Made by a program: the position numbers and the translations under genes
Source: Daejeonella sp.
GTDB taxonomy: Bacteria > Bacteroidota > Bacteroidia > Sphingobacteriales > Sphingobacteriaceae
Direction: 5' to 3'
DNA length: 64,000 nucleotides
NCBI RefSeq assembly: GCF_030684675.1
Contig: NZ_JAUXXZ010000076.1
Location: 1 to 64,000 of the forward strand
Notes under the pieces: generated by a model
Databases searched by the model: none
The model's input: the letters and a program-made list of their open reading frames with translations, nothing else
What the model was told of the DNA's origin: nothing
Part shown: positions 2,651 through 56,809 of the stretch, piece by piece
Position numbering within the stretch: position 1 is the first letter of the stretch
Layout of the letters: every line of letters starts with the position of its first letter

Positions 2651-3937
2651 ATGTCAGAATCAGCATCCCTAAAAATAGGAGAACAAACTTACGAACTGCC
2701 AATCATTACTGGTACTGAAGGTGAAAAGGCCATTGATATTTCTAAACTTCGGGACGCAAGCGGATATATAACTCTTGATTCTGGATATAAAAATACAGGC
2801 GCAACAAAAAGTGCCATTACATTTTTGGATGGGGAAGATGGGATATTAAAATACAGAGGCTATGGTATTGAAGAATTAGCAGAGAAATCTACTTTTATCG
2901 AAGTTGCCTATCTGTTGATTTATGGCGAATTACCAAATCAAACACAACTTGACGCCTTTCAGTCGAGTATTTCAAGACATACTCTGGTTCATGAGGATAT
3001 GAAGAAATTTTTTGATGGATTTCCTTCAAAATCTCATCCCATGGGTCAGCTTTCTTCCCTAATCTGCTCCCTATCTTCTTTTTATCCGGAATCATTAAAT
3101 GCAAAGCAAACGCCTGAAGAGCAAAATCTGACGATTATCAAGTTATTTGCAAAAATGACTACTGTGGTTTCCTGGATTTATAAAAAATCACTCGGACATC
3201 CGATCATATACCCACAGAATAATCTGGATTACGTAAGTAATTTTTTGAACATGACCTTTGGTCAGCGTACAGAAGAGATCCAAATTGATCCTGTAGTGGT
3301 GAAGGCAATGAATGTTTTATTCATTCTCCATGCTGATCATGAGCAAAACTGTTCAACTTCAACTGTTCGTATGGTTGGTTCATCAGACTGTAATTTATAC
3401 GCTTCAATTTCAGCAGGTATTTCAGCACTTTGGGGTCCACTTCATGGTGGTGCCAACCAGGCAGTAATTGAGATGCTTGAGGAGATTAAAAATGATGGTG
3501 GTGATACTGATAAATGGATCAATAAAGCAAAAGATAAGAACGATGGCTTCCGGCTTATGGGATTTGGCCATCGCGTTTACAAAAATTTTGACCCACGGGC
3601 TAAAATTATTAAGAAAGCATGTGATGAAATTCTTGATAAACTGGGTATTGATGATCCGGTTCTGGATATTGCTAAGAAACTTGAAACTGCAGCTTTGAAC
3701 GATCCTTATTTTGTTGATCGTAAACTTTATCCCAATGTAGATTTCTATTCTGGTATTATCTATCGGGCATTAGGCTTTCCAACGGATATGTTCACTGTAC
3801 TTTTTGCTTTAGGCCGTTTACCGGGATGGATTGCTCAATGGAAGGAAATGCGTGAAAATAAAGAACCAATTGGCAGACCAAGACAGATATTTATAGGTGA
3901 GACAGTGCGTACGTATGTAGATTTAAAGAATCGTTAA
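2651..3937 (+). CDS. gltA: Citrate synthase
   Basis: The 428-residue protein has the length of bacterial hexameric (type II) citrate synthases. It condenses acetyl-CoA and oxaloacetate to citrate in the first TCA step, in the cytoplasm. The catalytic triad can be placed: His in WGPLHGG (about residue 265), His in GFGHRVY (about 307) and Asp in PNVDFYSG (about 364), close to E. coli His264/His305/Asp362. The HADHEQNCSTST segment is also typical. The gene is monocistronic: a candidate promoter lies just upstream and a strong hairpin terminator follows. Start ATG 2651 gives the usual N-terminal beta domain. Confidence 0.97.
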   Translation: MSESASLKIGEQTYELPIITGTEGEKAIDISKLRDASGYITLDSGYKNTGATKSAITFLDGEDGILKYRGYGIEELAEKSTFIEVAYLLIYGELPNQTQLDAFQSSISRHTLVHEDMKKFFDGFPSKSHPMGQLSSLICSLSSFYPESLNAKQTPEEQNLTIIKLFAKMTTVVSWIYKKSLGHPIIYPQNNLDYVSNFLNMTFGQRTEEIQIDPVVVKAMNVLFILHADHEQNCSTSTVRMVGSSDCNLYASISAGISALWGPLHGGANQAVIEMLEEIKNDGGDTDKWINKAKDKNDGFRLMGFGHRVYKNFDPRAKIIKKACDEILDKLGIDDPVLDIAKKLETAALNDPYFVDRKLYPNVDFYSGIIYRALGFPTDMFTVLFALGRLPGWIAQWKEMRENKEPIGRPRQIFIGETVRTYVDLKNR

Positions 3938-3956: not shown

Positions 3957-3993
3957 AAAAACTCCTTGGGCTAAAATCCATAGGAGTTTTTTT
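3957..3993 (+). terminator. Rho-independent terminator of gltA
   Basis: The arms AAAAACTCCT (3957-3966) and AGGAGTTTTT (3982-3991) pair over 10 bp around a 15-nt loop. The right arm runs into a T tract, 20 nt after the stop codon. Confidence 0.85.
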
Positions 3994-4511
3994 TGACAAA
4001 TAGAAGAGCTCAAATTTATTGAGAACAACTTGAAAACTATTTATTTATCCTGAGTTCAATATAAAATCTTGCGAGACTAATTAGATTGAAGATTTTCTTT
4101 TGTTTTAGAAAGTAAGGTATGTGATTCTTCAGTCGCGACAGTCTTGTGTTCTGCTTTATTTTTGTAGCAGTTCAGTATATATCATGAAATTTCGTGTTTC
4201 AAAAAAGCTACATCAGCCAGCCGGGTTTATTTCAAATGGCAGATGGTCCTATTGCCGGGCTTTCCCTTCCGATGAAAAACAGCCCCGGATAAAATAAACC
4301 TTGCCGGAGGAGGTATCTTCCGGCTATTCGTAATTTGAAATAGAACGCAATTTCTTGCCGGAAATACTCCGAAGGAAAGGGCTGAACCAGCCTATGACAC
4401 ACAGGTATTGATTTTCAAAATCAAATCATTGAGGTTCAAGAGCCTTATCTGACCAATTATAACCGTATTTTTTGCTCTTCCTTATATCGTCGAACTCAGG
4501 TTAATTTAATC
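3994..4511. other. Gene-free 0.5-kb stretch with a GC-rich self-complementary block (4205-4400)
   Basis: No credible ORF is seen on either strand. The core at 4205-4400 is more GC-rich than its flanks and can fold. GGTTTATTT (near 4215) is complementary to AAATAAACC (near 4292), enclosing a CCGGGCT / AGCCCCGG pair. A second hairpin is GCCGGA (4303-4308) with TCCGGC (4319-4324). GGGCTTTCCCTTCC near 4257 is roughly matched by the complement of GAAGGAAAGGGCT near 4371. It could be a dispersed intergenic repeat, a decayed mobile element, or a structured RNA; I recognise no known family. Flanks 3994-4200 and 4400-4511 are AT-rich and featureless. Confidence 0.4.
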
Positions 4512-5786
4512 CTACATCAAAATTCCTGCGATAGTTGCAGAAAGATAGGAGGCAAGAGTACCGCAGATCAGCGCCCTCATTCCAAGCTTGGCAAGGTCGG
4601 TTCTTCTCTCAGGGGATAACTCACCAATTCCACCAACCTGAATAGCAATTGAACTGAAATTTGCAAACCCACACAAAGCAAAACTGGTAATCAGTATAGT
4701 TTTCGGATCCAGGGTTTCTTTGATCTTTGCAAGGTCGAGATAAGCAACAAATTCATTGATTACCATTTTAGTACCCATTAAGGACCCTGCTATTTGAATG
4801 TCCTTGCCCGGAACGCCCATTGCGTATGCAAATATTGAGAAAAGCGATCCCAGAATTTGGTTTAGACTGAGTGTCTGTAAATTGATCCCAATGAAAGAAA
4901 GGGTTAATCCCAGACTGTGAAGTCCAAATCCAATTTTTCCAAGTACAAAATCAACCAGTGCGATGATAGCTATAAACCCGATTAGCATGGCCACAACATT
5001 TAAACCTACTTTTAATCCATCACTTGCACCATGGGAGATCGCATCGACCAGATTCGCATTTGTTTTCTTAATTTCTAAAGAAACCCTTCCTTTAGTTTCT
5101 GAGATTTCTGTTTCAGGCCATACGATCTTGGAAATGACTAATGCGGCAGGGGCGGCCATTAAACTTGCTGCTATGAGATATTCTGCCGGCACACCCAGAG
5201 CAATATAAACTGCCATGACACCACCGGCGATACAAGCCATGCTACCAGTCATAGAGGCTAATAATTCTGACATGGTCATGCCCTTTAAATAAGGTTTGAT
5301 CATAATCTGTGCCTCAACTTGCCCAACAAATGCACTGGCCACATTAGAAAGCGCTTCAGAACCCGAAACTCCCATTAATTTATAAACGATATAGGCTATG
5401 AACTTTACAATGCGCTGCATGATTCCAAGATAATAGGCAACACTAACTAATACTGCAACAAAAATGATGGTTGGGATTATGTTGAAGAAGAAGATAAATT
5501 CGTTACCATTACCAAATGCCTTACTCATATTGGCCGTATTCACCAATGGGCCGAATACGAATGCTGCTCCAGCCTGTGAAAAGTTCAGAATTTTTGTAAC
5601 TGCATCACCAAGCCAGGCGAAAATACTTTTGCCTATAGGGATTTTAAGTATGAACACTGCAAGAGAGATTTGTATCGCTAAACCGGAAAATACCAATTTG
5701 TAATTGATTGCCTTTCTATTATTGGACATAAGAAAGGCAATTGCAAAAATCAATACAACGCCAATCAGTCCGGTAAATCTCTCCAT
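4512..5786 (-). CDS. nupC: NupC-family concentrative nucleoside transporter
   Basis: The 424-residue integral membrane protein has an N-terminal pair of helices, a gate region (about residues 90-190) and a C-terminal transport domain. This is the order of concentrative nucleoside transporters, which take up nucleosides with Na+ or H+. Typical stretches are GQVEAQIMIKPYL, MTGSMACIAGGVMAVYIALG and LCGFANFSSIAIQVGGIG. It lies upstream of the bifunctional-nuclease gene on the same strand in divergent orientation to gltA. The two minus-strand genes could share a transcript (71-bp gap). Substrate range and coupling ion cannot be read from the sequence. Confidence 0.92.
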   Translation of the reverse strand: MERFTGLIGVVLIFAIAFLMSNNRKAINYKLVFSGLAIQISLAVFILKIPIGKSIFAWLGDAVTKILNFSQAGAAFVFGPLVNTANMSKAFGNGNEFIFFFNIIPTIIFVAVLVSVAYYLGIMQRIVKFIAYIVYKLMGVSGSEALSNVASAFVGQVEAQIMIKPYLKGMTMSELLASMTGSMACIAGGVMAVYIALGVPAEYLIAASLMAAPAALVISKIVWPETEISETKGRVSLEIKKTNANLVDAISHGASDGLKVGLNVVAMLIGFIAIIALVDFVLGKIGFGLHSLGLTLSFIGINLQTLSLNQILGSLFSIFAYAMGVPGKDIQIAGSLMGTKMVINEFVAYLDLAKIKETLDPKTILITSFALCGFANFSSIAIQVGGIGELSPERRTDLAKLGMRALICGTLASYLSATIAGILM

Positions 5787-32334: not shown

Positions 32335-32451
32335 AAGTATCAAGTAGATTTTTAATATAAATCGGTTTAATACCGAATATAATAACCATAATTTTTATTA
32401 CAAACAAGATGCCGAAAACCCTATAATTCAGGGGTTTTGAAAAATAAAAAA

Positions 32452-32843
32452 AATGCAAGCCTGTAAGCCGGGTTCTGTTTTCCCGCAATGCGGGACTTCT
32501 ATCATTTATCTGGTCGCGCAATTGCTTGCGAGATCTAACGACCTACCCATTCCGGATAACCCCGTAGGTACGGGATAAGGAAGCGAGCAGCTTCACGTCC
32601 GGAACCTATTTGGTCTTTCAACTCCTGGGGTTTACCGCACTGCATGTCACCATACAATACCGTGAGCTCTTACCTCACGTTTTCACCTTTTCCCCAAAAC
32701 CTAAGTTTAGGGGTAGTATATTTTCTGTGGCACTTTCCGTATCCGCTTTCGCGGAGCCTTCCCGTTAAGAAGCAGGATGCTCTGTGTTGCCCGGACTTTC
32801 CTCTCTCCCGCAAATGCGGGCGAGCGATAGAACGGCTTGCTTT
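32452..32843 (-). ncRNA. rnpB: RNase P RNA (bacterial class A)
   Basis: Read on the minus strand, the RNA begins AGCAAGCCG, then holds the conserved GAGGAAAGTCCGGGC near the 5' end (about 32800). ACAGGCTTGC closes it at the 3' end. GCAAGCC (32834-32840) pairs with GGCTTGC (32455-32461) to form helix P1 over about 390 nt. It carries the other universally conserved patches, such as GGTAAACCCC and AGATAAATGATAG. The RNA is the catalytic subunit that matures tRNA 5' ends. A T-rich run follows the 3' end on this strand. Confidence 0.93.
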
Positions 32844-56734: not shown

Positions 56735-56809
56735 GGTGGCTGTAGCTCAGCTGGTTAGAGTATTGGTTTGTGGTGCCGAGGGTCGTGGGTTCGAGCCCCA
56801 TCAGCCACC
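56735..56809 (+). tRNA. tRNA-His (anticodon GTG)
   Basis: The acceptor arm GTGGCTG (56736-56742) pairs with CAGCCAC (56802-56808). The extra G at 56735 faces C at 56809, the G-1:C73 pair specific to tRNA-His. The anticodon loop TTGTGGT carries GTG, and the T loop is TTCGAGC. CCA is not encoded. A terminator follows at 56825. Confidence 0.95.

Follow-up and report, generated by a model that had tools for sequence, protein, structure and literature searches.

Results

A non-coding element occupies the gap between two convergent genes

We analysed a 64,000-nucleotide window of a Daejeonella sp. genome (positions 1 to 64,000 of contig NZ_JAUXXZ010000076.1), in which a citrate synthase gene (2651–3937; PF00285) is followed by a convergent nucleoside transporter gene on the minus strand (4512–5786; PF07662). 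As the preliminary description had stated, the region after the citrate synthase gene is gene-free: the ORF scan returned no reading frame of at least 60 amino acids between 3938 and 4511. By eye, a stem-loop with a T run after it can be made out at ~3957–3993, just 3' of the citrate synthase gene (the automated scan has no entry there), and it looks like the terminator of that gene, which would locate the repeat described below past the gene's own end. Further downstream, a foldable block had been reported at 4205–4400. The block is real, although these limits cut through a longer element whose true ends lie at 4048 and 4501. The features of the locus are as follows.

4041–4047, no strand: left target-site copy, TTATTTA (6 of 7 bases match 4502–4508)
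4048–4501, plus strand: whole element, 454 bp, non-coding, classed as an IS982-ended MITE; recognised by its copy number, with ends fixed by the terminal inverted repeats and the target duplication
4048–4064, plus strand: left terminal inverted repeat, family consensus ACSTGAGTTCGATATAA; similar ends occur on IS982-family elements in loci L206, L217 and L218
4113–4300, minus strand: left hairpin unit, head-to-head with the right unit and sharing the central stem with it, decayed in the window copy (model R2, 23.6 bits, E 1.2e-4 in a whole-window search)
4224–4410, plus strand: right hairpin unit, the conserved core (alignment A1, model R1; 95 bits with R2)
4224–4232, plus strand: 5' strand of stem P1, GGTTTATTT, pairing with 4292–4300
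4292–4300, plus strand: 3' strand of stem P1, AAATAAACC, pairing with 4224–4232
4299–4380, plus strand: long hairpin P4, CCTT-G-CC-GNA-GGA-N-GTAT-C-TTCCGGC ... GCCGGAA-ATAC-TCC-GNA-GG-A-AAGG, with the covarying pair T4316–A4364 and the architecture of the Flavo-1 consensus
4482–4501, minus strand: right terminal inverted repeat, read from the sequence, with a 3-base insertion in the window copy
4502–4508, no strand: right target-site copy, TAATTTA, 3 bases from the transporter stop codon at 4512

Rfam gives just two matches at gathering score in the whole window, both elsewhere: an RNase P RNA (class A; 32448–32843) and a tRNA (56736–56809). A large ORF at 85–1830 contains repeated units like AGSYTVTVTDSKGCT, which we take to resemble the cell-surface repeats of Bacteroidota.

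The element is present in many copies

A BLASTN count of copies had been put forward at the outset as a check that would reveal a repeat. With 4150–4450 as the query against the own genome, all 40 scored candidates matched at 78–100% identity, the window included; these were the best 40 of 75 first-look candidates, so the genome holds at least 40 copies and the block is, as had been suggested, a dispersed intergenic repeat with folding ability. The homologs whose absence, together with that of transcription, the preliminary description had set against its own reading thus proved abundant. A longer query showed that full copies extend from ~4040 to 4510, and the covariance model of the core (R1) gave at least 43 own-genome matches at E ≤ 1e-3 among the best 150 of 1758 candidates scored. 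Across the own genome and 59 relatives, 13 of 60 genomes matched (two of the 13 by a short, weak match only), with strong matches in the own genome and in 10 of 19 genomes of the same genus; the sister genomes contributed at least 86 matches, about 12 at most being scored per genome. The core pattern occurs in at least 99 stretches, and titles among the matches listed name Daejeonella, Sphingobacterium, Pedobacter, Sphingobacteriaceae, Sphingobacteriales and Bacteroidota, the pattern used to choose loci from named contigs being an exact one in which part of the hairpin is fixed. No match to the element was found in the phage and plasmid collections, nor any to the core pattern among viral contigs. 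Where both ends could be placed (53 copies), the span was 440–475 bp in 34 copies and 273–568 bp in the rest.

Several variants were observed among the copies. In family A mosaics the 5' half is partly swapped for another GC-rich palindrome, TTGCTGGAACG..GCGCACCAGCA (L053 near 1708, L061, L065, L068 and L072), while in L112, L117, L149, L178 and L192 some 55–80 additional bases are present around the terminal loop of P4 and both flanking halves still fit the model. A second, shorter repeat of ~180–220 bp, family B, has the same type of ends and a different palindromic interior, ACCACATAGATTGA...TATGTGGT (L194–L201, L204, L209 and L213), some copies carrying a CCTGCCGGCAGGCAGG-type insert; the own-genome stretch G000:C7:96601-96807, judged by its pair of ends alone, is probably another family B copy.

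The ends and the target duplication connect the element to IS982

The copies share imperfect terminal inverted repeats (TIRs), TTAAC[C/G]TGAGTTCGATATAA opposite its reverse complement, the element proper starting at AC[C/G]TGAGTTCGATATAA. Allowing up to 3 mismatches, this pattern occurs 38 times in the own genome, against 0 occurrences of the reversed control; in the window copy the ungapped search detects the left end alone because of the 3-base insertion in the right TIR. The flanks of 41 TIR pairs (the best pair per place, family B included, retained from 54 candidates; a narrower run used 33 of the 41) point to an AT-rich target duplication of 7 bp when the ends are set at AC...GT, with a mean flank identity of 0.585 versus 0.487 in shuffles (z 4.7). 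Mean identity exceeded the shuffles at 7 bp only, where 4 of the 41 pairs agreed exactly (0.60 expected); exact agreements were also above the shuffles at other lengths, with 3 at 6 bp (0.34 expected) and 1 at 8 bp (0.02 expected). A TTAA-only duplication was considered and set aside, since its 4-bp signal, seen in unfiltered pairs, was gone after filtering (z 0.8). A 9-bp signal with ends at C..G is the same thing as the 7-bp duplication with ends at AC..GT.

An AC terminus and a target duplication of several bases are features of IS982 elements. The IS982-family transposase domain (PF13612) scored above cut-off in 2 of 20 genomes of the genus, both ORFs reaching ~228 bits. In L218, a 1044-bp IS982 element holds its transposase between ACGTGAGTTCGGGATAA and ACGTGAGTTCGGGTTAA (15/17 and 14/17 bases matching the MITE end), in L217 the ends that flank an IS982-family transposase have diverged, and in L206 the exact left end of the MITE (17/17 bases) stands ahead of a broken IS982-type gene. 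The MITE resembles these IS982 elements over the terminal 16–34 bp only (17 of the 40 own-genome copies compared), and no deletion intermediate between the two was found. The own genome (G000; 84 contigs, 98.97% complete) gave 0 matches to PF13612 and so shows no parental transposase of this family, which a relic MITE does not need in its own genome; three PF01609 transposase matches are present there. A parent was also sought as a TIR pair enclosing a transposase, with none in 1.02 Mb of loci, the sole long pair being two family B elements around an ordinary ORF.

The element thus combines TIRs shared with IS982, the lack of a transposase gene inside and a short target-site duplication (6 of 7 bases in the window copy), which are the marks of a MITE. 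From these sequence features we conclude that it is an IS982-ended MITE whose mobiliser would be either gone from the own genome or unsampled. The IS982-type ends and the target duplication bear out the idea, raised as one of three in the preliminary description, of a mobile-element remnant.

The hairpin fold is maintained across relatives

The complementary segments that first drew attention to the block are all present: GGTTTATTT (4224–4232) with AAATAAACC (4292–4300), CCGGGCT with AGCCCCGG (~4255–4288), and the related GCCGGA (4303–4308), TTCCGGC (4318–4324) and GCCGGAA (4357–4363). A more distant match between GGGCTTTCCC and GGAAAGGGCT, also pointed out then, is not conserved as a pair: at that place the copies have the consensus GGGCTGCCCGTCCC. 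Folding of 4224–4410 gave a z-score of −2.04 on the plus strand (8/200 shuffles as good) and −0.84 on the minus strand (35/200); single-sequence folding energy alone would not have settled the reality of the block, which homology does. An alignment of 54 copies of this region (A1) is compatible with the central stem P1, two smaller helices and the long hairpin P4. It was drawn from 154 model matches, of which 105 passed the length and score filters; 56 of these had the 5' strand of P1 (the other 49 are without it), and the removal of two of odd length left 54.

Within the genus, most pairs of P4 are nearly invariant; at the T4316–A4364 pair, 33 of the 54 copies have UA and 20 have GC, with at least 8 changes on a poorly supported tree, 2 of them on supported branches. 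Double-changed cells numbered 30 versus 17.0 in shuffles (0/500 as high), 20 of the 30 falling on that one base pair, and there was no excess of pairs changed on both sides (8 versus 7.3; 220/500 as high) or of further pair types (25 versus 24.0), so that covariation within the genus is thin. Private changes, counted in 33 of the 40 own-genome copies, were about 2.4 times fewer per cell in the P4 stem (0.0097; 17/1744) than in its loop (0.0235; 24/1020), the 3' spacer lying at 0.020 (47/2341), whereas the counts of G-U and A-C pairs, a guide to the strand of action, showed no asymmetry (78 versus 60; 81 versus 59 in shuffles). The stems therefore mutate less than the loop, and folding at the RNA level and at the DNA level, which both fit, could not be separated.

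In a search of 301 family genomes, R1 had a match at E ≤ 0.01 in 43, against a chance expectation of ~3 (best 8 candidates scored per genome; the E-values are rough). Of the 43, 13 belong to the window's genus, 28 to one other genus (g14, at a guess Pedobacter) and 2 to further genera. Twenty loci of these relatives supplied 31 R1 matches outside the MITE, in which P1 and P4 are retained. Their double-changed cells number 175 versus 53.6 ± 6.3 in shuffles and 27–37 in slid versions, a comparison in which the matches are non-independent (10 of the 20 loci represent three orthologous sites, and overlaps between the two strands occur among several of the matches) and which uses an alignment fitted to the structure. 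In the wider family, pairing has thus been maintained through compensatory change. A second model, R2, was built solely from these 31 matches and includes no Flavobacterium-like sequence.

Such matched changes might also arise at the DNA level, by template switching at quasipalindromes, instead of through selection for a fold. Quasipalindrome correction gives matched arms without RNA function, and the lack of strand asymmetry is in keeping with it, but correction would tend to erase the internal loops, bulges and GNA/GNA mismatches that have been retained here while the arms co-vary, and we regard this explanation of the compensatory changes as improbable.

Genomic placement and the case for a host RNA

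Compared by eye, P4 and the consensus of Flavo-1 (RF01705) share one layout of helices, mismatch, 3x3 loops and 5' bulge, namely a short helix, one mismatch, 2 bp, a 3x3 loop with GNA, 2 bp, a helix, the 5' bulge and a helix of 7–8 bp. Flavo-1 is typed as an sRNA in Rfam and, by the part of the source available, was reported in 2010 (PMC2864571). The proposal that the block might be an unknown RNA stands in part: the fold lies within a covarying family related to this orphan Rfam family, and its action as an RNA is hypothetical.

A crude ORF rule places 18 of 40 own-genome copies between convergent ORFs and 3 between divergent ones; the remaining 19 have co-directional neighbours, 14 of these copies being in the same sense and 5 in the opposite one. 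No ORF of at least 100 amino acids runs through any of the 40, a rule blind to a gene split by the copy. This placement fits tolerance at gene ends and could also reflect a stable transcript end. In the other genus, hairpin units are flanked by the same neighbour genes in different species at three sites (L233/L235/L237/L249, L236/L238/L246 and L242/L244/L247) and were therefore inherited in place, which suits a kept function better than recent movement.

The hairpins could accordingly be a host-encoded small RNA or cis-regulatory RNA in many copies, with mobility incidental. The compensatory changes across relatives, the constraint on the stem in one genome, the sRNA typing in Rfam, the 10 of 20 other-genus loci at inherited sites and the position of copies mostly at gene 3' ends all agree with such an RNA; at least 40 copies, among them truncated and mosaic ones, a distribution limited to part of the genus, transposon ends and target duplications do not, nor does the situation in F. 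psychrophilum. There, according to the portion of the transcriptome study available, Flavo-1 matches occur in both orientations relative to transcribed regions and many lie outside them (PMC9723704), a placement that would seem to suit a repeat better than a dedicated sRNA. We consider a host RNA with incidental mobility unlikely, and the reading as a MITE with a retained hairpin preferable.

The MITE encloses an inverted doublet

R2 also matches the MITE on the opposite strand, with the P1 region common to both units, in 11/11 full copies given (E ≤ 0.1, the weakest 0.006; the set comprised full copies, truncated ones being left out). The left unit, which scores 23.6 bits in the window copy, reaches 56.9 bits in the sister copy L039. 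Among the 20 loci of relatives, overlapping inverted matches occur in 4 (L233, L234, L237 and L246), tandem matches in 4 (L235, L236, L244 and L249) and single matches in 12, and none of the 20 has an IS982-type end of the MITE family (≤4 substitutions) within 500 bp. The doublet therefore occurs elsewhere without these ends, and the MITE resembles a repackaged doublet.

An inverted-pair layout is characteristic of REPIN doublets, which likewise join two inverted hairpin repeats into one unit. The doublet might be of the REPIN type and owe its movement to a RAYT-type tyrosine transposase, the IS982 ends being a later addition of little effect; the overlapping inverted pairs and tandem arrangements (4/20 loci each) and the lack of IS982-type ends (20/20) in other genera would agree with this, as would the short dispersed hairpins of two Flavobacterium-like genomes. 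The ends of the window element and its 7-bp duplication nevertheless indicate a DDE transposase, and we regard a RAYT-driven origin as unlikely. Its hairpins also differ from REPINs in being much longer, with conserved internal loops.

The core is a distant relative of Flavo-1

Nine of the 20 relatives' loci were scanned with RF01705, which scored above its gathering threshold in four (L233, L237, L241 and L249), all five of these matches coinciding with R1 matches; the other 5 loci gave no match at E ≤ 0.5. The window itself gave no RF01705 match at the gathering score (42 bits; whole window), nor at E ≤ 5 or E ≤ 10 in the intergenic region. R2, by contrast, connects the two: it scores 95 bits on the window core, a value that is partly circular as the members of R2 had been picked by R1, and on the Flavo-1 side, which is not circular, it recovers 18/20 Flavo-1 loci of genome G387 and 19/20 of G485 (37/40 from two Flavobacterium-like genomes), as well as 5 of the 6 own-genome Flavo-1 loci given. 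Over 187 kb, each of the 65 R2 matches coincides with a MITE or a Flavo-1 position. R1 matched just 2 of 12 own-genome Flavo-1 loci given, and one own-genome locus, L260, is matched by RF01705, R1 and R2. Homology to Flavo-1 can thus be traced through intermediate sequences, with the partial circularity of R2 noted above. The window element is a distant relative of Flavo-1 and not a member: it falls below the Rfam threshold and adds the upstream stem P1, the inverted partner hairpin and the transposon ends.

In the phylum sample, Flavo-1 scored above cut-off in 22 of 198 genomes, with at least 22 matches in each of nine genomes of genus g51 (G342, G346, G376, G387, G402, G457, G469, G485 and G489), whose true copy numbers probably exceed 22. 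The Flavobacterium-like copies are short dispersed hairpins, well conserved over only ~85 bp; in one genome a weaker similarity continues past this stretch. The own genome also contains weak 74-nt Flavo-1 matches whose length suggests family B, as do the nearby ends of two or three of them.

That the likeness to Flavo-1 is mere convergence of hairpin repeats, the core being a genus-specific palindrome built of simple motifs such as GNA loops and GC-rich stems, would agree with the missing RF01705 match in the window (E ≤ 10) and with the 2/12 own-genome loci found by R1, but is highly improbable given that R1 and RF01705 select the same places in 4/9 loci, that R2 recovers 37/40 Flavo-1 loci along with the MITE and has 65/65 matches at MITE or Flavo-1 positions, and that L260 is matched by all three models.

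Discussion

Our analysis indicates that the foldable block is very probably the core of a 454-bp non-autonomous MITE, in which a Flavo-1-related doublet was captured between IS982 ends and amplified with its hairpin retained. An older, free-standing doublet of the Flavo-1 type, of the kind seen in another genus without these ends, would have come to lie between IS982 ends before amplification, and an IS982-family transposase presumably moved the element in trans, the own genome now being without PF13612. The own-genome copies would then be relics or, alternatively, await re-supply of a transposase. The hairpin may have been kept because it forms on read-through from neighbouring genes and provides a stable 3'-end structure, a role in keeping with the position of the element between convergent genes; this is the least certain step, and a role at the DNA level is possible.

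The mobile-element part of this arrangement is of a known kind. There is a close likeness to MITECca01 of Cardinium, described in the part of the report available to us as an IS982-derived MITE of ~240 bp with 169 copies, whose parental ISCca4 is intact in the same genome (PMC9769881). Both are short non-coding repeats with IS982-type ends, present in many copies, mostly intergenic and hosted by Bacteroidota (PMC9769881, same part), whereas the window element is 454 bp long, has no parent found in its own genome and contains a Flavo-1-like doublet.

Among other repeats of this general type, ERIC, Correia and further MITE-like repeats of Proteobacteria are intergenic and palindromic like the window element, in other host phyla and with other ends; we know of no sequence relation between them and the window element, and the likeness is one of description only.

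The unusual part is the Flavo-1-like doublet inside. In the literature searched, most subscription journals lying outside the search, we found no description of Flavo-1 as mobile or transposon-borne and no function assigned to it; in the portion available, the authors of the F. psychrophilum transcriptome could make no sense of its placement (PMC9723704). Our results suggest that a family listed as an RNA is able to move as DNA. A wider and more tentative possibility, to which we give somewhat less than even weight, is that Flavo-1 is fundamentally a mobile Bacteroidota repeat made of hairpins, free-standing and sometimes doubled. It would have proliferated in certain lineages and come to rest at inherited sites in others; in the window's genome it would have been enclosed anew by IS982 ends, its stem being under selection either for spread or for a role at the ends of neighbouring transcripts. 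That a relative of Flavo-1 forms the paired core of a MITE would offer a concrete, testable reason for the scattered placement of the family, and the some 40 copies in the own genome are natural replicates for gauging the effect of the hairpin on nearby genes.
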